Of a stretch of DNA of 13,029 nucleotides, positions 1,220 to 12,795 are shown one piece after another; positions within the stretch are counted from its first letter, which is position 1; each line of letters opens with the position of its first letter. Source of the stretch: Candidatus Eiseniibacteriota bacterium (GTDB taxonomy: Bacteria; Arandabacterota; Arandabacteria; JAGLYR01); NCBI GenBank assembly GCA_023132135.1, contig JAGLYR010000184.1, forward strand, positions 1-13,029, given 5' to 3'. A model generated the notes under the pieces. It was given only the letters and a program-made list of their open reading frames with translations. It had not been told where the DNA came from and did no database searches. A program made the translations under genes and the position numbers.

Positions 1220-2479
1220 ATGGACAAGATTGTCATCCGGGGTGGAAACAAACTGGAGGGGATGGTCCGGATTTCCGGATCGAAGAATGCCGCGCTCCCC
1301 ATCATGGCTGCGACCCTCCTGAGTTCCGGGGAGAGCATCATTGAGAACGTGCCCGACCTGAAAGACGTTTCCACCATGGCACACGTTCTTCGCATTCTTG
1401 GCGCCCAGGTACGCCCGGAGGACAACCGGCTGACCATCGACACGCGGGCTTGCCGGTACTGGGAGGCGCCGTACGAGCTGGTTCGGACCATGCGCGCGTC
1501 GGTGTATGTCCTGGGGCCTCTGATCGCGAGGTTGGGGCGCGCCCGGGTTTCCTTGCCGGGCGGGTGCGCCTGGGGACCCCGGCCGGTGGACTTTCATCTC
1601 CGCGGGTTGACCCGTTTGGGCGCGGACGTGCGGATTGAACACGGATACATTGTCGCCGAGAGTCAGGGACTCAGGGGGGCCGAGATTGTCTTTGAGGTCC
1701 CGAGCGTTGGAGCCACGGCGAATCTGATGATGGCGGCCACCTTGGCCAAGGGCAAGACCGTGATGAGGAATGTGGCCCTGGAGCCTGAGATCACGGCTCT
1801 GGCGGAGTACCTGAACGGGATGGGAGCCCGGATTACGGGTCAGGGCAGTCCCGTGATCGAGGTTGAGGGAGTATCCGAACTCCGGGCCGGGAAGGGTGTG
1901 GTGATCCCCGATCGAATAGAGGCCGGCACATACATAATTGCCGGGCTTGTCACGGGCGGGCATCTGCACCTGGAGAACTGCAGCGCTTCACATATGGGCG
2001 GCATGATCGACCAGCTTGTCGAGGCGGGGGCGACCATCCGCGCAGGGGAGTCGTCCATCGAAGTCCAGGGCAGCGGGAGACTGAGGTCGGTGGACATGAC
2101 GACGGCGCCCTTTCCCGGTTTTCCAACGGACATGCAGGCCCAATACATGGCGCTGATGAGCCTGGCGTCGGGAACCAGCGTCATCACCGACGAGGTGTTT
2201 CACGATCGCTTCACACACGTTCCGGAGCTGCGGCGTCTCGGTGCGGACATCGAGGTGGAGGGAAACCGGGCCACGGTCCGGGCCGTGGACCATCTGAGCG
2301 GCGCGCCGGTAATGGCTTCGGATCTGCGGGCCAGTGCGGCCCTTGTTCTCGCCGGGTTGGTTGCGGAAAGACAAACGGAGATTCTCCGCGTCTACCACAT
2401 CGACCGCGGGTATGAGAGAATCGAAGTGAAACTTCGCTTGCTGGGTGCGGACATCGAACGCGTGCGTGCGGAGATGTAA
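1220..2479 (+). CDS. murA: UDP-N-acetylglucosamine 1-carboxyvinyltransferase MurA
   Basis: MurA transfers enolpyruvate from phosphoenolpyruvate to UDP-GlcNAc, the first committed cytoplasmic step of peptidoglycan synthesis. The start ATG at 1220 gives a protein beginning MDKIVIRGGNKLEG and 419 residues long, the same length as E. coli MurA. A GAGAG eight bases upstream is the likely ribosome site. The fold is the EPSP-synthase inside-out alpha/beta barrel. Near the N-terminus is the substrate motif SGSKNAALP (19-27). The catalytic loop reads SLPGGCAWGPRPVD, with the reactive cysteine at position 116 (Cys115 in E. coli). Because Cys is present and not Asp, the enzyme is predicted to be fosfomycin-sensitive. 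selB begins one base after the murA stop, so the two are cotranscribed and translationally coupled. Confidence 0.96.
   Translation: MDKIVIRGGNKLEGMVRISGSKNAALPIMAATLLSSGESIIENVPDLKDVSTMAHVLRILGAQVRPEDNRLTIDTRACRYWEAPYELVRTMRASVYVLGPLIARLGRARVSLPGGCAWGPRPVDFHLRGLTRLGADVRIEHGYIVAESQGLRGAEIVFEVPSVGATANLMMAATLAKGKTVMRNVALEPEITALAEYLNGMGARITGQGSPVIEVEGVSELRAGKGVVIPDRIEAGTYIIAGLVTGGHLHLENCSASHMGGMIDQLVEAGATIRAGESSIEVQGSGRLRSVDMTTAPFPGFPTDMQAQYMALMSLASGTSVITDEVFHDRFTHVPELRRLGADIEVEGNRATVRAVDHLSGAPVMASDLRASAALVLAGLVAERQTEILRVYHIDRGYERIEVKLRLLGADIERVRAEM
2470..2473 (+). promoter_or_regulatory. selB ribosome binding site within the murA 3' end
   Basis: GGAG at 2470-2473 lies inside the last codons of murA, seven bases before the TTG at 2481. 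It supports that TTG as the selB start over the in-frame upstream codon at 2445, which would overlap murA and add residues not found in SelB. Confidence 0.7.
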
Positions 2480-2480
2480 T

Positions 2481-4442
2481 TTGAAAAACATCGTTCTCGG
2501 AACGGCAGGCCATATCGATCACGGGAAGACGGTGCTCATCAAAGCCCTTACGGGGGTGGACACGGATCGTCTCAAGGAGGAGAAGGAACGCGGGATTTCC
2601 ATCGATCTGGGGTTCGCATTTCTGGACCTTCCCGGAGACGTGAGGGCCGGGATCGTCGATGTTCCGGGACACGAGCGGTTCATCAAGAACATGCTGGCTG
2701 GGACCTGCGGTATCGACGCTGTGGTCATGGTGGTAGCGGCCAACGAGGGTGTCATGCCGCAGACGCGGGAACATCTCTCCGTCATCGACATGCTGCGAAT
2801 TGAACGGGGAGTGATCGCCGTCACGAAGACGGATCTGGTGGATCCGGAGTGGCTGGAGCTGGTGAAGGCGGATGTTGATGTTCTCAAGAAGGGCTCAGTT
2901 CTCAGGGATGCCGAGATCATCCCTGTTTCCGCGGTGACCGGGGAAGGGCTTGAGGATCTCGTCGAAGCTCTCGGGCGGTTGGCGGCGGTGGTGCCGGAAC
3001 GGTCCCTGGGGGGGGCGGCAAGGCTCCCGGTGGATCGGGTTTTCACGGTGGAAGGATTCGGAACCGTTGTCACCGGGACGCTCTGGAGTGGGGAGATTGG
3101 GGAAGGGGATCGGCTTGTGCTCCTGCCCCACGAGGCCGAGGTGCGGGTCCGGAGCGTGCAGGTCCATTCCCGCTCCGTTCCCAGGGCGGTGGCGGGCCAG
3201 CGGACAGCCGTGGCGCTTCACGGGTTGGGCAGAACAGAGGCGAGCCGGGGGGATGTTCTGGCAACCCCGGGTGCCTACGCAGTCACCCACATGATTGATG
3301 CCCGGATGGATCTGGTTGCGGACGCGGCGAGGCCGGTCAAGTCCCGATCGCGTCTCCGACTTCACCTGGGTTCCTCGGAAATCCTCTGCCGGGCCGTCCT
3401 TCTCGAGAAGGATGCATTGGCGCCCGGTGATTCCCAACTGGCGCAGATCCGGCTGGAAGCACCCGTGGTCACGACCCGGGGAGATCGTTTCGTTCTCCGC
3501 TACTACTCACCCATGAGGGTGATTGGGGGTGGGGTTGTACTCGACCCGATGCCCGGGAAACACAAGGCCAGGGATGCCGGTATCCTGGAGCGGCTCGCTG
3601 TCCTGGAAACAGGGACCCCCGAGGACCGGGTGTTGGAGATCCTCGTCGCTGCCGGCGGCAAGGGAGAGGGCCTTGCGGAAATCGGCCGGAAAATGGGAAT
3701 CGAGACTGACGAGGCTCGATTGTTGCTCCGGGGCTTGAGCGAGGAAAACAGGGCTCTGGAGATTGGCCGGAAGCTCTGGGTTGATCGCGGTACACTGGAT
3801 ACGGTGTCCGGGAAAATCATCGAAGTCTGCGAGGACTACCAGAAGAAGAATCCCGTCCGCTGGGGCATCTCGAAAGAGGAACTCCGGACCCGTGCCGGTG
3901 TGCGGATCGCGCCCGCAGTAGTGGAACGGGCCTTGGAAATCCTGGTGACGGAGAAACAAGTGTTCCAGAAAGCCGACCGGATCCGGGGTGGCTCCGAGGA
4001 TCTGACCCTTGATCCGGCGAAGGAGCAGTTGCGGCGGAAAGTCGTTGCTCTGATGAGGCAGAGCGGTTTTTCCCCGCCGCTGGTCTCGGCACTGGCAGAG
4101 CAACTGCCCGGCCTGGGTGCGAAGCCGGTGGAATTCCTTGACACCATGGTTGATTTGGGAGATCTGGTCAAGATCAGCCCGACGCTCTATCTCCACGCCG
4201 ACGCTGTTCGGGAGGCGCGCCGCAAACTGTCGGAGTTCTTTGCCGCCAACGACCGGGTTTCGGTCCCCGAATTCAAGGGTCTCATCGGCGGTGCAAGCCG
4301 CAAGTATACGATTCCCATTCTCGAGTATTTCGATGTAACAGGGGTGACGCAGAGGGTGGGGGATGCGAGAGTGGCAGGGGTAAAGAGCGCAGTACAGGAT
4401 CTCACCACGAAGCCACGAAGGGGAGAACCCTCTGGAGAATGA
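2481..4442 (+). CDS. selB: Selenocysteine-specific translation elongation factor SelB
   Basis: SelB is a GTPase that carries selenocysteinyl-tRNA(Sec) to the ribosome and binds the SECIS hairpin of selenoprotein mRNAs. With the TTG start the protein has 653 residues, slightly longer than E. coli SelB (614). The GTPase motifs are all present: G1 GHIDHGKT (10-17), switch [10 protein letters not shown] (37-45), G3 DVPGHERF (60-67), G4 TKTD (115-118) and G5 VSAVTGEG (from 149). Two EF-Tu-like barrels follow, then C-terminal winged-helix repeats; the last contains [14 protein letters not shown], the conserved RNA-binding signature. The final residues after RVGDARVAG look like an untemplated extension encoded partly by an 8-bp tandem repeat (CCACGAAG twice, 4405-4420). 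selA, selC and selD are not in the window, so the organism should encode them elsewhere. Confidence 0.95.
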
Positions 4443-6837: not shown

Positions 6838-6920
6838 GCCGCATCATGCACGGACCGTTGACGCGATACGGTCGCAGGTTTTCGCGACAGCATCTGTCGA
6901 GTGAGAGACACGAGGCCGGC

Positions 6921-6926
6921 AAGGGG
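6921..6926 (+). promoter_or_regulatory. Ribosome binding site selecting the GTG start at 6934
   Basis: AAGGGG lies seven bases before the GTG at 6934. An in-frame GTG at 6901 would add 11 Arg-rich residues and has no comparable site, so 6934 is preferred. A small inverted repeat (GTCGC/GCGAC, about 6871-6888) lies upstream. Confidence 0.65.
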
Positions 6927-6933
6927 ACTGACG

Positions 6934-7524
6934 GTGCAAGCGTTCAAGGATCGTATCAGGGCATGGATTGAACCTGCAACGAGTGCCATGGCCCGGATGG
7001 GGATTCACCCGTCAGCCCTCACGTTCCTGGGTCTGATCTTCAGCCTGGGCGCCGCGGTTGCGTACGCCAAGGGCCACTTCCCCCTCGCGGGGATTCTGTT
7101 CCTGCTGGCCGGCGTTTGCGACATGACCGATGGACCAGTGGCCCGGATTACGGGAAAGAGTTCACCGTTCGGCGCGTTCCTGGATTCGTCCGTCGACAGG
7201 TATTCGGAAATCCTGGTCTATCTCGGGCTGGGTGCGTACTACGTGCGAGCCCAGCAGGTGGAGTGGGTAGCAGTGTTCCTGGCCTTCTCCGGCTCGCTGA
7301 TGGTGAGCTACACTCGGGCGAGAGCGGAGGGACTGGGTCAGGAGTGCCACGTGGGCTGGGTTCAGAGACCCGAGAGGCTGGCGATTCTGATCCTCGCGTC
7401 GCTCCTGGGGCCGCGCGTTGCAGGTTGGAGTCTCTGGCTGCTGGCGGGGTTGTCCCATCTGACGGCGGCCCAGAGAATCCGCCACGTCTATCTGGTGATG
7501 AACAAGCCGGAACCGCGTGCGTGA
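6934..7524 (+). CDS. CDP-alcohol phosphotransferase, phosphatidylinositol-phosphate synthase-like
   Basis: Integral membrane enzyme of the CDP-alcohol phosphotransferase family. The catalytic metal-binding motif is perfect: D63-x2-DG-x2-AR-x8-G-x3-D84-x3-D88. The 196-residue protein has several hydrophobic segments, consistent with the usual six-helix bundle. Two features tie it to the mycobacterial PgsA1/PIP synthase branch and away from phosphatidylglycerophosphate synthase: SYTRARAEGL (125-134) and the QRPERL motif (144-149), both close to the mycobacterial equivalents (SYIKARAEASG, ERPERL). The likely reaction joins CDP-diacylglycerol and inositol-1-phosphate to give phosphatidylinositol phosphate plus CMP. 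The next gene is inositol-phosphate synthase, which makes the second substrate, so context and motifs agree. Other family members use glycerol-phosphate or inositol, so the exact substrate is inferred. Confidence 0.85.
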   Translation: MQAFKDRIRAWIEPATSAMARMGIHPSALTFLGLIFSLGAAVAYAKGHFPLAGILFLLAGVCDMTDGPVARITGKSSPFGAFLDSSVDRYSEILVYLGLGAYYVRAQQVEWVAVFLAFSGSLMVSYTRARAEGLGQECHVGWVQRPERLAILILASLLGPRVAGWSLWLLAGLSHLTAAQRIRHVYLVMNKPEPRA

Positions 7525-7549: not shown

Positions 7550-7627
7550 GGCAAAGGTCACATGATGATCAAGTGAGAAGATTTGCAGGGCAAAGGTTGC
7601 ATGATGATCCGGTGAGAAGATCTGCAG
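7550..7627. repeat. 39-bp tandem duplication in the ino1 leader
   Basis: Two adjacent units (7550-7588 and 7589-7627) match at 34 of 39 positions. Each contains GGCAAAGGT, CATGATGATC, GTGAGAAGAT and TGCAG. The second unit runs straight into the ino1 ribosome site. CATGATGATC has partial dyad character, so paired operator sites are possible. No clear -10/-35 pair was found in this 117-base gap. Confidence 0.9.
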
Positions 7628-7634
7628 GGAGGAG
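7626..7634 (+). promoter_or_regulatory. ino1 ribosome binding site
   Basis: AGGGAGGAG lies seven bases before the ATG at 7642. It fixes the start there and excludes the longer in-frame reading from 7573, which runs through the tandem repeat. Confidence 0.85.
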
Positions 7635-7641
7635 TGTGGAG

Positions 7642-8916
7642 ATGGGGAAAGTGAGAGTGGCCATAATCGGCGTCGGTAACTGCGCGTCATCTCTTGTTCA
7701 GGGAGTGCACTACTACCGAAATGCTGAGGAGAACGAATCCATACCGGGGCTGATGCACCCTCGGGTGGGCGGGTACCACATTCGCGACATCGAGTTCAGC
7801 ACTGCCATCGACATCGACGCGAACAAGGTGGGGAAGGACCTGAGCGAGGCGATTTTCACCTGGCCCAACAACACGATCAAATTCACGGATGTTCCATCCC
7901 TGGGAGTGGAGGTCGTTCGTGGAATGACGCACGATGGTCTGGGCGAGTATCTCAGCCAGATCATCAACAAGGCGCCGGGGCCGACGGCAGATATCCGCGG
8001 GCTCCTCGAAGAGACGAAGACCGACGTCGTGGTCAACTACCTTCCCGTGGGGAGTGAAGAGGCAACCAAGTGGTACGTCGAGCAGGTTCTGGATGCGGGA
8101 TGTGGATTTGTCAATGCGATCCCGGTGTTCATTGCAAGGGAAGCCTACTGGCAGGAGAGGTTCATCCAGCGAGGTCTTCCTGTGATCGGCGACGACATCA
8201 AGTCCCAGGTGGGAGCAACCATTGTCCACCGTGTGCTGACCCGGTTATTCCTTGAGCGCGGAGTCCGGCTGGAAAGAACGAGCCAGTTGAATGTAGGCGG
8301 GAACACGGATTTCCTCAACATGCTGGAACGCTCGCGACTGGAATCCAAGAAGATCTCGAAGACCAACGCGGTGACCTCGCAGCTGGACTACGACATCGGA
8401 TCCCGCAACATCCATATTGGTCCGAGCGACTATGTGGAGTGGTTGGACGATCGCAAGTGGGCTTACATCCGCATGGAGGGTCGAACTTTCGGAGATGTTC
8501 CCCTCAACATCGAGATGAAACTTGAGGTTTGGGATTCCCCAAACTCGGCCGGAGTCATGATAGATTCCATCCGCTGCTGCAAACTGGCACTGGATCGGGG
8601 ACTCAGCGGCGCGATCGAGGCTCCGTCTTCCTACTTCAAGAAGTCCCCTCCGGTCCAGTACACGGACGCGGAGGCGCGGCTGTTGACAGAGGAGTACATC
8701 ACAGGGGTCCCGGCCGCCAGGAAGAAACCCGCGAGGGCTGGGGCTGCAGCTAAGGCTAAGGCCAAGGCCAAGACCAAGGTCAAGGCCAAGGCCAAGGTCA
8801 AGGCCAAGGTCAAGGCCAAGGTCAAGACCAGGCCGAAGGTCAAAACGAAGGCCAAGTCCAAGGCGAAAGTGAAGAAAACTAAGGCCAAGAGCCGCATCTC
8901 CCGAAAAGGGCGGTAG
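7642..8916 (+). CDS. ino1: Inositol-3-phosphate synthase (actinobacterial type) with Lys-rich C-terminal tail
   Basis: The enzyme converts glucose-6-phosphate to myo-inositol phosphate, using NAD. The core (1-355) closely resembles mycobacterial Ino1. It has the Rossmann motif [12 protein letters not shown] (10-21), [10 protein letters not shown] (132-141), [12 protein letters not shown] (183-194), [15 protein letters not shown] (216-230), ESKKISKT (234-241), LDDRKWAY (268-275) and [13 protein letters not shown] (293-305). The core aligns to the normal family end at EEYITG (350-355). The gene then continues with about 69 residues of Lys-Ala, Lys-Val and Lys-Thr dipeptides; residues 371-424 hold 24 lysines. 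This resembles histone H1-like or AlgP tails and is encoded by an AAGGYC hexamer repeat. The upstream gene makes the partner phosphotransferase, so the pair should produce phosphatidylinositol phosphate. The role of the tail is unknown. Confidence 0.95.
8752..8829. repeat. Hexanucleotide repeat encoding the Ino1 Lys-X tail
   Basis: Thirteen successive six-base units of the form AAG-GCC, AAG-GTC, AAG-GCT or AAG-ACC (codons 371-396). Units keep AAG exactly while the second codon varies, so each reads Lys then Ala, Val or Thr. More degenerate Lys-X codons follow to the end of the gene. Such tracts change length easily by slippage in multiples of six, which preserves the frame. Confidence 0.95.
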
Positions 8917-9061: not shown

Positions 9062-10636
9062 ATGAGGAACCTCAAGCGCGTCAAGTGGATAACTGTTCTA
9101 GTCATCGCAGGCGTGGGGCTGGGGGGATGGTTGTGGGGTTACGCCGAGGGTAGCAGTGACAGCCTCTACACGGCCCTGGGGGTAATGAGCAATGTTCTCA
9201 ACCGTGTCGGGTCCGAGTATGTGGAAGAAGTGGACTTGGTCGATCTTGTCTACAGCGGTATCAAGGGCATGGTGGCGACTCTGGATCCGCACTCCCAGTT
9301 TCTGGATCAGACTAACTACGGGAACCTGATGACGGGGACGCGCGGGTCCTTCGAGGGACTTGGCATCGAGATTGCAATTCGCAACGGGGTTCTGACTGTC
9401 GTATCGCCTCTCGAAGGCACACCCGCGTACCGAATAGGGATTCGGGGAGGGGACAAGATTGTCCAGATCGAGGGTGAGTCGACAGCCGGAATCACGACTG
9501 CGGGAGCTGTCGAGAAGCTGCGGGGTCCGAGAGGCACGCAGGTCACCATCACCATTGCGAGGGAGGGAGAGCGGGAGCCTTTCGACGTCACGATAACCCG
9601 GGATGTGATCAAACTGAAGAGTGTCCCCTATTCATTCATGATGGATGACGGAATCGGCTACGTCCGCATCAGCCAGTTCAGCGAGGACACGACCCGGGAA
9701 CTGGAAACGGCTCTTGATGAGCTCTCCAGGGAGGGGCTGGAGGGTCTGATTGTGGACCTTCGGACCAACCCCGGCGGACTTCTCACACAAGCGGTTGCGG
9801 TGTCCGACAAGTTCCTGGAGCGGGGCGATCTGATTGTGTCGACCCGGGGTCGCAAGATCGCTCAGAATCAGAGCTACTACGCCAGGCAGGGTGCGTCGGG
9901 CGCCTACACCATTGTTGTCCTGGTTAACGGCTCCAGCGCCAGCGCCTCGGAGATCGTAGCAGGGGCGATCCAGGATCATGACCGGGGTCTCGTCGTTGGA
10001 AAGCGGAGCTTCGGGAAAGGTTCTGTTCAGACAGTTACCCAGGTCGGCAACGGGTGCGCGCTCAAGCTCACAACGGCCAAGTACTACACGCCGTCGGGAC
10101 GCTGCATTCACCGGGATAACTGGGAAGAAGACGCGGAAACCGAAGTTGCCCTGAGCGGCGATGAGGAGGAAAGGGAAACCTTCCACACGGAACAGGGCAG
10201 GGATGTTTTTGGCGGCGGTGGGATCATGCCGGATGTGGTGGTGGAACTTAAAAGGTTGAGTGATCTTGCGCTGCTTCTGGAACGAGGGGCTCTCTTCTTC
10301 AGCTATGCGACCCAGTGGACCAGCCGGATGGGGGAAGCCGCGCAGATTCCCGAAGTCGGCGACGAGATTGTCTCCGAGTTCAGGGACTTGCTTGTGGCCG
10401 AGGAGATCGAGTTCGAGGACGAGGCGTTTGAGGCAGAACAGGAGTACATACGGCGCGCTATTCGGAGGGAAATCGCCGATCGACTCGAGGGCCATGAAGC
10501 GGCGGTCAGAGTGGCCATCGTGGCCGATCTGCAGGTTCTTGCGGCCGTTGACCTGCTGAAAGAAGCGAATTCGCTGACGGAGCTGTTCGAGATTGCTGCC
10601 GCCCGCCAGGCGGATCTGCCCGGCGACGATGAGTAG
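9062..10636 (+). CDS. S41 C-terminal processing peptidase (CtpA/Tsp-like) with PDZ domain
   Basis: A membrane-anchored serine protease that trims or degrades envelope proteins from their C-termini. The 524-residue protein starts with MRNLKRVKW and a single hydrophobic segment (about 9-27), predicting a periplasmic body held by an N-terminal anchor. A PDZ domain (about 97-168) includes GLGIEI and GTPAYRIGIRGGDKIVQIEG. The S41 core follows. It has GYVRISQF (199-206), LIVDLRTNPGGLL (229-241) and the catalytic dyad of Ser294 (in SASAS) and Lys319 (in SFGKGSVQ), 25 residues apart as in E. coli Tsp. A C-terminal extension (about 350-524) is acidic and helical with a GGIMPDVVVE segment, as seen in longer CtpA types. 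The stop overlaps the next ATG by eight bases, indicating coupling to the HAD phosphatase. The natural substrate is not evident. Confidence 0.93.
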   Translation: MRNLKRVKWITVLVIAGVGLGGWLWGYAEGSSDSLYTALGVMSNVLNRVGSEYVEEVDLVDLVYSGIKGMVATLDPHSQFLDQTNYGNLMTGTRGSFEGLGIEIAIRNGVLTVVSPLEGTPAYRIGIRGGDKIVQIEGESTAGITTAGAVEKLRGPRGTQVTITIAREGEREPFDVTITRDVIKLKSVPYSFMMDDGIGYVRISQFSEDTTRELETALDELSREGLEGLIVDLRTNPGGLLTQAVAVSDKFLERGDLIVSTRGRKIAQNQSYYARQGASGAYTIVVLVNGSSASASEIVAGAIQDHDRGLVVGKRSFGKGSVQTVTQVGNGCALKLTTAKYYTPSGRCIHRDNWEEDAETEVALSGDEEERETFHTEQGRDVFGGGGIMPDVVVELKRLSDLALLLERGALFFSYATQWTSRMGEAAQIPEVGDEIVSEFRDLLVAEEIEFEDEAFEAEQEYIRRAIRREIADRLEGHEAAVRVAIVADLQVLAAVDLLKEANSLTELFEIAAARQADLPGDDE

Positions 10637-11418: not shown

Positions 11419-12795
11419 ATGAAGATCAGGAAACTGTCGTGTCTGTTCATTGGACTTCTTGTGTTATCGCTGGCGGTGGGATGTGGGGAGGACGACGAGA
11501 GCTCCACAGGGCCGGGGCCTGTGCAGGCCCCCGAAATGGGCATCGCCGAAATCACGGTGCCGGATGGTCTGCAGAGCGTGCAGGATCCGATGGCGCAGCA
11601 GGCTTTGCAGTACATTACTGCGGCTAACAGATTCGGCAACTGGGATTCGTTTTTCTCCCCGGATAAGAAGGGCGCCGGGACGGCCTTCCGCGACGGTCCT
11701 CCATGGACGGAGACGTGGACTGAAGATGATCTCACCATCACGATAACCATCACTGAGGATGCAACCAAGTACTACTGGGAGATCGTGCTGGACGGCACCG
11801 ATGGGGAATATGACTACGACGAATTCCTGTTTATCGAGTCGTGGCAGACGAAGGATGGCAAAAACGGTGAGATGGTCATCTATGACCCCGAAACCGAAGA
11901 AGAGATCTTCAAGTGGGCATGGGCGACGGCTGCCGACGGCACCTACACCTTCGAAATGTATGACTTCGAGAGCGGCGAAAAGGTCGTGATCACCATCGAC
12001 CCGGATGGATCCGGGACGATGAGTTTCTACTCCTATGACGGGGCCGAGTGGATTCTGCTCTTCAGCTTCACATGGGACGCCGACGGCAACGGTTCCTGGG
12101 CGGAGTACGACGAGGCAGGAACCGAGACTGATTCGGGGGACTGGGAAGGTGGAGACGTAGACCCCACGGATATCCCCGACCTGGACTTCATCACGGTCAA
12201 TCTTCCTGAGCACATGCTCGAGTCCGACGATTACTATGCACTGATTACCGTAGCCATGGTACAGACGGCCAACGCCCTCAGCTCCTTCGTAGAGCTGTAC
12301 TTCATCTCCCAGGAGGAAGCCGGGGCCAAGGCCGGGGCCAAGGCTACGGCCGGCGAGGACGGCCCGCCGTGGGAGTACTCATGGACGGAGGACGGTCTCA
12401 CCACCACGGTGACGGTGGATGAGTCGGGGGATCTGTACACCTGGGAAGTGGTTCTTGACGGGACGGACGGGGAATATACCTATGACGAGTGGCTGGCGGC
12501 TGAGGCCGAGCAAGCGATGGACGGCTCGTACGGATTCGTCATGATCTACGAACTTGAAACCGGCGAAGTTGATGTCGAGTGGAGCTGGGGCACCGAGGCG
12601 GGGGTCTATCAGTTTGAGTTGATCTTCGATGGCGGGGAGTCTGAGATGGATATCACCGTGTATGCGGACCTCTCCGGAATCCTTGAGCAGTACGAGGGAG
12701 GCGAGCTGTTTTTCAAGAGCGTATGGGCATCCGACGGCACCGGCGAGTGGTGGGTGTATGGTGACGATCCCGATTCGGGGAGTTGGGTGAAGTAG
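11419..12795 (+). CDS. Acidic lipoprotein with internally duplicated domain of unknown function
   Basis: I do not recognise the family. The 458-residue protein has a type II signal peptide: MKIRK, a hydrophobic stretch, then LAVGC with the lipidated cysteine at 22, followed by an acidic, Ser/Gly-rich tether. An envelope lipoprotein is predicted. Two units of about 200 residues (roughly 42-243 and 255-458) repeat the same plan. Each starts with an ITV-containing helical segment, then DGPPW (92-96; 314-318), a WTED strand pair, EIVLDGTDGEYDYDE or EVVLDGTDGEYTYDE, repeated aromatic beta-hairpins, and a final DSGDW or DSGSW. The linker before the second DGPPW has a 12-bp tandem repeat giving AGAKAGAK. 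The protein is strongly acidic and rich in Trp and Tyr. The ATG has AGAAGGAGG six bases upstream. Its stop TAG touches the inverted-repeat element. Confidence 0.85.
   Translation: MKIRKLSCLFIGLLVLSLAVGCGEDDESSTGPGPVQAPEMGIAEITVPDGLQSVQDPMAQQALQYITAANRFGNWDSFFSPDKKGAGTAFRDGPPWTETWTEDDLTITITITEDATKYYWEIVLDGTDGEYDYDEFLFIESWQTKDGKNGEMVIYDPETEEEIFKWAWATAADGTYTFEMYDFESGEKVVITIDPDGSGTMSFYSYDGAEWILLFSFTWDADGNGSWAEYDEAGTETDSGDWEGGDVDPTDIPDLDFITVNLPEHMLESDDYYALITVAMVQTANALSSFVELYFISQEEAGAKAGAKATAGEDGPPWEYSWTEDGLTTTVTVDESGDLYTWEVVLDGTDGEYTYDEWLAAEAEQAMDGSYGFVMIYELETGEVDVEWSWGTEAGVYQFELIFDGGESEMDITVYADLSGILEQYEGGELFFKSVWASDGTGEWWVYGDDPDSGSWVK
12319..12342. repeat. 12-bp perfect tandem repeat in the lipoprotein linker
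   Basis: GCCGGGGCCAAG occurs twice in succession, in frame, encoding Ala-Gly-Ala-Lys twice. It sits in the low-complexity linker between the helical part and the beta part of the second unit, where a length change would be tolerated. Confidence 0.9.

Follow-up and report, generated by a model that had tools for sequence, protein, structure and literature searches.

The inositol-3-phosphate synthase (Ino1) encoded in the window, the 13,029-nucleotide stretch of Candidatus Eiseniibacteriota DNA analysed here, is extended in frame by a polybasic C-terminal tail. Alignments with homologous tails show that the positive charge is kept while length and sequence drift. Judging from these sequences, the tail quite probably acts as an electrostatic tether of some kind.

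The catalytic core of Ino1 comprises 355 residues (7642..8706, + strand). Its reading frame is open from a GTG at 7573, and the likely start is the ATG at 7642, which lies behind GGGAGGAG. The core matched the Pfam Inos-1-P_synth family (PF01658) with 126.3 bits, above the gathering score of 27. Core residues 4-353 also covered the full length of TIGR03450 (model positions 1-355) with 540 bits, which is below the equivalog cut-off of 638. Because the match is full-length and its score lies under the cut-off, the protein probably belongs to a clade that is sister to the actinobacterial equivalog, inside the same enzyme family. Ino1 of M. tuberculosis (1gr0), of the TIGR03450 family, aligned with residues 3-355 (481 bits), the entire catalytic core being collinear up to the last residue of the 1gr0 chain. 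By contrast with the window's protein, that chain stops at the end of the core and has no tail. According to the alignments, the strongly conserved Ino1 motifs are all kept in the window's core and the enzyme is otherwise normal.

Past the core, the frame runs on for 69 codons to a stop codon at 8914-8916 (tail, 8707..8916, + strand). The 69 residues include 26 Lys, 6 Arg, 17 Ala and 7 Val (38% Lys and 25% Ala), with no Asp or Glu. A sequence-only reading of this DNA had held that the core ends at the normal family position and is followed in frame by a Lys-rich tail with 24 Lys in its last 54 residues; the 1gr0 alignment, which ends at residue 355, bears out the boundary, and the count is as stated. 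Much of the tail is encoded by an AAGGCC/AAGGTC hexamer array (8752..8864, + strand) that specifies KA and KV dipeptides and that Tandem Repeats Finder described as a 6-bp tandem repeat, AAGGCC, of 18.8 copies with 75% matches. The array is peculiar to the window's genome, the tails of other Ino1 proteins not being KA/KV arrays, and hexamer slippage may explain the unusual length of the window's tail. In an AlphaFold2 model, the core was confident, residues 366-394 formed a weak, low-confidence helix and residues 397-424 had pLDDT <50. Helices predicted on KA repeats may be over-predicted, and the tail is likely to be flexible when free. Rich in Lys and Ala, devoid of Asp and Glu and of low predicted order at residues 397-424, the tail is histone H1-like in composition.

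The tail recurs in relatives. Eight genomes of the window's phylum were searched and Ino1 was detected in seven. All seven proteins carried a basic tail starting at the core end, with lengths past core residue 353 of 71 (the window), 39, 20, 32, 21, 30 and 31 residues and net charges of +9 to +32. The sequence-only reading had noted that close relatives without a tail would mark it as a local accident; none of the seven lacks one. These in-frame tails led us to reject a local accident. Because they begin at the same point, a frameshift is a very unlikely origin of the window's tail.

Beyond the window's phylum, Ino1 was present in 122 of the 132 genomes of a second phylum, that of genome G016, where 29 of the 30 tails read had a net charge of at least +7 and the remaining one +3. 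In a third phylum, that of genome G037, all four tails were basic. A scan of genome contigs found basic Ino1 tails in records named Zixibacteria, Eisenbacteria and WOR-3; these are the organism names given at deposition, which are in part unreliable, and the two sets of loci overlap, with some records in both. The view in the sequence-only reading that tails of this kind are foreign to the enzyme family is thus not supported: among uncultured bacteria, a tailed Ino1 is the rule in no fewer than three groups of phylum level. The Ino1 proteins of Chloroflexota and Actinomycetota mostly had neutral or acidic tails that ended within 2-59 residues. Nearly all Chloroflexota lacked a basic tail, three having tails of net +6 or +7, and it was absent from all sampled Actinomycetota. 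On a quick tree of 96 Ino1 cores, the inner support of which was modest, the basic-tail label required 8 changes as compared to 30.8 in shuffles. The trait is clustered on the Ino1 tree.

The 41 basic tails pooled, which were chosen by net charge, ranged from about 10 to 78 residues and contained 31% Lys, 16% Ala, 12% Arg and 10% Thr, with Asp and Glu together making up 2%. In pairwise tail alignments, which are weak for the more distant pairs, Lys or Arg stood opposite Lys or Arg in 89% of cases, the identity at other positions being 66%. Lys or Arg stood opposite Asp or Glu in only 5 of 764 cases. This near-absence, even though AAG is a single transition away from GAG, points to selection against acidic residues. 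Many Zixibacteria tails start with KYGWK and finish with KKRVVRKKK. Overall, the alignment of Ino1 homologues that the sequence-only reading had proposed found charge to be conserved and length to be variable among relatives.

The tail is specific to Ino1 within the genes sampled. The background was a 32% sample (1.08 Mb) of the genome to which the window belongs, containing 842 ORFs that were mechanical longest-ORF picks, some of them spurious. Over the final 30 residues, the Lys count of these ORFs was 1.23 ± 1.25; Ino1 ranked top with 12, the runner-up having 8, and its tail exceeds chance. In 360 kb of genome G001, Ino1 was the first of 299 by charge of the last 20 residues. In tailed loci, the last 20 residues reached a net charge of at least +6 in 27 of 29 Ino1 proteins vs 1 of the 180 genes that neighbour ino1. 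Lys-rich basic ends occurred in 23 of 1212 ORFs in the relatives' loci, which lie mostly around ino1, and 20 of the 23 were Ino1. The tail alone, used as a query against the window's genome, gave no match beyond itself. Within the genes sampled, the ORF rankings speak against Lys-rich ends as a general habit of these genomes, a reading that we rejected.

Two other Lys-rich ORFs were noted. The first (L053 2395-2625; G000:C280:5394-5624) is a stand-alone ORF of 76 residues, 57% of them Lys (MSAAKVKAKAKKKTKV...), and resembles a small H1-like nucleoid protein. The second (L052 2704-2859; G000:C275, contig end) follows a nusA-like gene, contains KVKAKAKAKPKPKVKAKA and is cut by the contig end; it is probably the start of infB, encoding the disordered N-terminus of IF-2.

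The gene directly upstream of ino1 (6901..7524, + strand) encodes a CDP-alcohol phosphatidyltransferase (PF01066, 68 bits), in which the motif DMTDGPVARITGKSSPFGAFLDSSVD was read from the sequence. Its probable product is a phosphatidylinositol-phosphate synthase. Among the best NCBIfam models for this protein are those of archaetidylinositol-phosphate synthase and of phosphatidylinositol-phosphate synthase, all below cut-off; the scores for NF040950 and NF045883 were 166 and 122 bits, under curated cut-offs of 180 and 170, respectively. The locus was read in six relatives belonging to the window's phylum, and each of them had a CDP-alcohol phosphatidyltransferase gene as the immediate upstream neighbour of ino1. 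In the phylum of G016, a homologue was found upstream on the same strand, no more than 7 kb from ino1, in 29 of 38 genomes, many of the distant matches being weak (29-37% identity) and possibly including other CDP-alcohol transferases. Directly adjacent transferases accompanied 15 tailed ino1 genes and were missing from 23, as compared to 11 and 41, respectively, for untailed ino1, in query-based counts that miss diverged or more distant copies and are not freed of phylogeny. The association between the tail and a directly adjacent transferase is weak.

Several other features of the window were recorded. A 39-bp tandem repeat of 2.1 copies (7550-7629) lies between the transferase stop codon and the ino1 ribosome-binding site, and a 38-bp tandem repeat of 2.2 copies (1012-1096) lies between prmC and murA. 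Positions 2445-4442 encode the selenocysteine-specific elongation factor SelB (TIGR00475, 358 bits vs a cut-off of 242); in Chloroflexota, many ino1 loci likewise had SelB-like GTPase matches on the upstream side. Positions 11419-12795 encode an acidic protein of 458 residues that has a lipoprotein-like start, two internal repeats (GPPWTETWTEDDL / GPPWEYSWTEDGL) and no Pfam match.

As to what the tail might bind, we tentatively hold the inner, anionic surface of the cytoplasmic membrane to be its most likely partner. The tail would act as a flexible, multivalent electrostatic tether. On the assumption that Ino1 is tetrameric, as is known for the family, the tails would add a charge of about +128, which would allow high-avidity binding to a polyanionic surface. 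Docked at the membrane, Ino1 would make inositol phosphate close to the CDP-alcohol phosphatidyltransferase, a membrane-embedded protein encoded by the neighbouring gene, and the transferase would use this product to form the inositol lipid. The adjoining transferase gene is what points to the membrane. Against the membrane as partner, ino1 of Thermoleophilia and other Actinomycetota directly follows the same transferase gene, yet their Ino1 is untailed; synthase-transferase coupling therefore needs no tail. Moreover, bulky hydrophobic or aromatic residues are usual in peripheral membrane anchors, and these tails are free of them except for the YGW motif at the tail start in many Zixibacteria. 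The composition is also nearer to that of H1/HupB-type nucleic-acid-binding tails, and the tail and the operon are both confounded with phylogeny.

That composition speaks for a second possibility, which we regard as somewhat doubtful: that the tail attaches to DNA, RNA or ribosomes irrespective of their sequence, placing or storing Ino1 on the nucleoid or polysomes. The abundance of Lys, Ala, Thr and Pro with few acidic residues is of the H1 type, and the other Lys-rich stretches found in the genome are the 76-residue H1-like ORF and the probable infB start after nusA. Precedents, established or presumed, are the Lys-rich tails of AlgP and PhaF of Pseudomonas (PMC9239181), Streptomyces TopA (PMC7398561) and HupB (PMC5676037). 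Actinobacterial TopA and HupB share with Ino1 a clade-specific Lys-rich C-terminal extension of H1-like composition on a conserved enzyme or protein, while AlgP and PhaF share a long, basic, probably disordered tail rich in Lys and Ala, their tandem repeats varying in number (PMC9239181). The likeness to AlgP proposed in the sequence-only reading holds for composition and goes no further. AlgP and PhaF carry KPAA repeats after a small helical domain, the C-terminal domain of AlgP being 195 residues long. The Ino1 tails are KA/KV or irregular, no KPAA tandem repeats were read in the window's tail, and the N-terminal part of the window's protein is Ino1 rather than an AlgP-type helical domain. 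AlgP and PhaF are associated with DNA, granules and polyphosphate, whereas the window's tail is on a metabolic enzyme, in genomes in which no polyphosphate kinase was detected. The carriers of the TopA and HupB tails bind DNA, whereas Ino1 is not known as a DNA binder. Nor is there a known reason for an inositol-phosphate synthase to reside on nucleic acid, and the gene neighbourhood is one of lipid synthesis.

It is less probable that the tail has no specific partner and was selected for an effect on solubility, stability or turnover, acting through charge repulsion or by shielding the C-terminus from proteases. Such a role would fit a tail in which net charge alone is conserved over lengths of 10-78 residues, and a C-terminal processing (S41) peptidase is encoded downstream of ino1 in tailed clades (9062..10636, + strand, in the window; PF03572, 179 bits). 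However, the S41 protein carries a membrane segment at its N-terminus and would be expected to lie outside the cytoplasm, and solubility tags are more often acidic. The peptidase gene lay downstream of 37 of 40 basic-tail ino1 genes vs 4 of 45 others. Although these raw counts are strong, the linkage corresponds to only 3 changes on the tree and, on supported branches, to only 2 independent pairs. A link between tail and peptidase is therefore inseparable from phylogeny.

Neutral low-complexity growth, in which the AAGGCC hexamer slips and the resulting tail has no function, is already disfavoured and seems very improbable. The hexamer array is present in the window, but charge is kept in relatives that lack it, and both the scarcity of acidic replacements only one transition away and the clustering of the trait on the tree speak against such growth. 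Least probable of all is polyphosphate binding, as at AlgP granules: Lys-rich disordered stretches are able to bind polyphosphate (PMC12345225), but neither PPK1 (PF02503) nor PPK2 (PF03976) was found in any of the 8 genomes of the window's phylum (7/14 and 8/14 controls positive), which disfavours this ligand, suggested in the sequence-only reading, other polyphosphate-making enzymes being conceivable.

Both the enzyme family and the tail type are known. A search of the open-access literature, outside which most subscription papers lie, found nothing linking inositol-phosphate synthase with a lysine-rich tail or C-terminal extension, which is weak evidence that the combination had not been described before. 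Bacteria are described as having inositol lipids comparatively rarely (PMC9246714); by contrast, Ino1 is carried by nearly all sampled genomes of the phylum of G016. For annotators, the tail is a caution that a Lys-rich end does not necessarily denote a nucleoid protein. A tail conserved in charge only, on one metabolic enzyme and in phyla without cultured models, also offers a clean test of charge-based enzyme placement. It is possible, though we put this forward with reserve, that the clade-wide polycationic tail docks an otherwise soluble sugar-phosphate cyclase onto a surface and thereby couples the initial step of inositol-lipid synthesis physically to the membrane or the nucleoid in several uncultured phyla. 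If so, this would be a metabolic pathway organised by charge alone.
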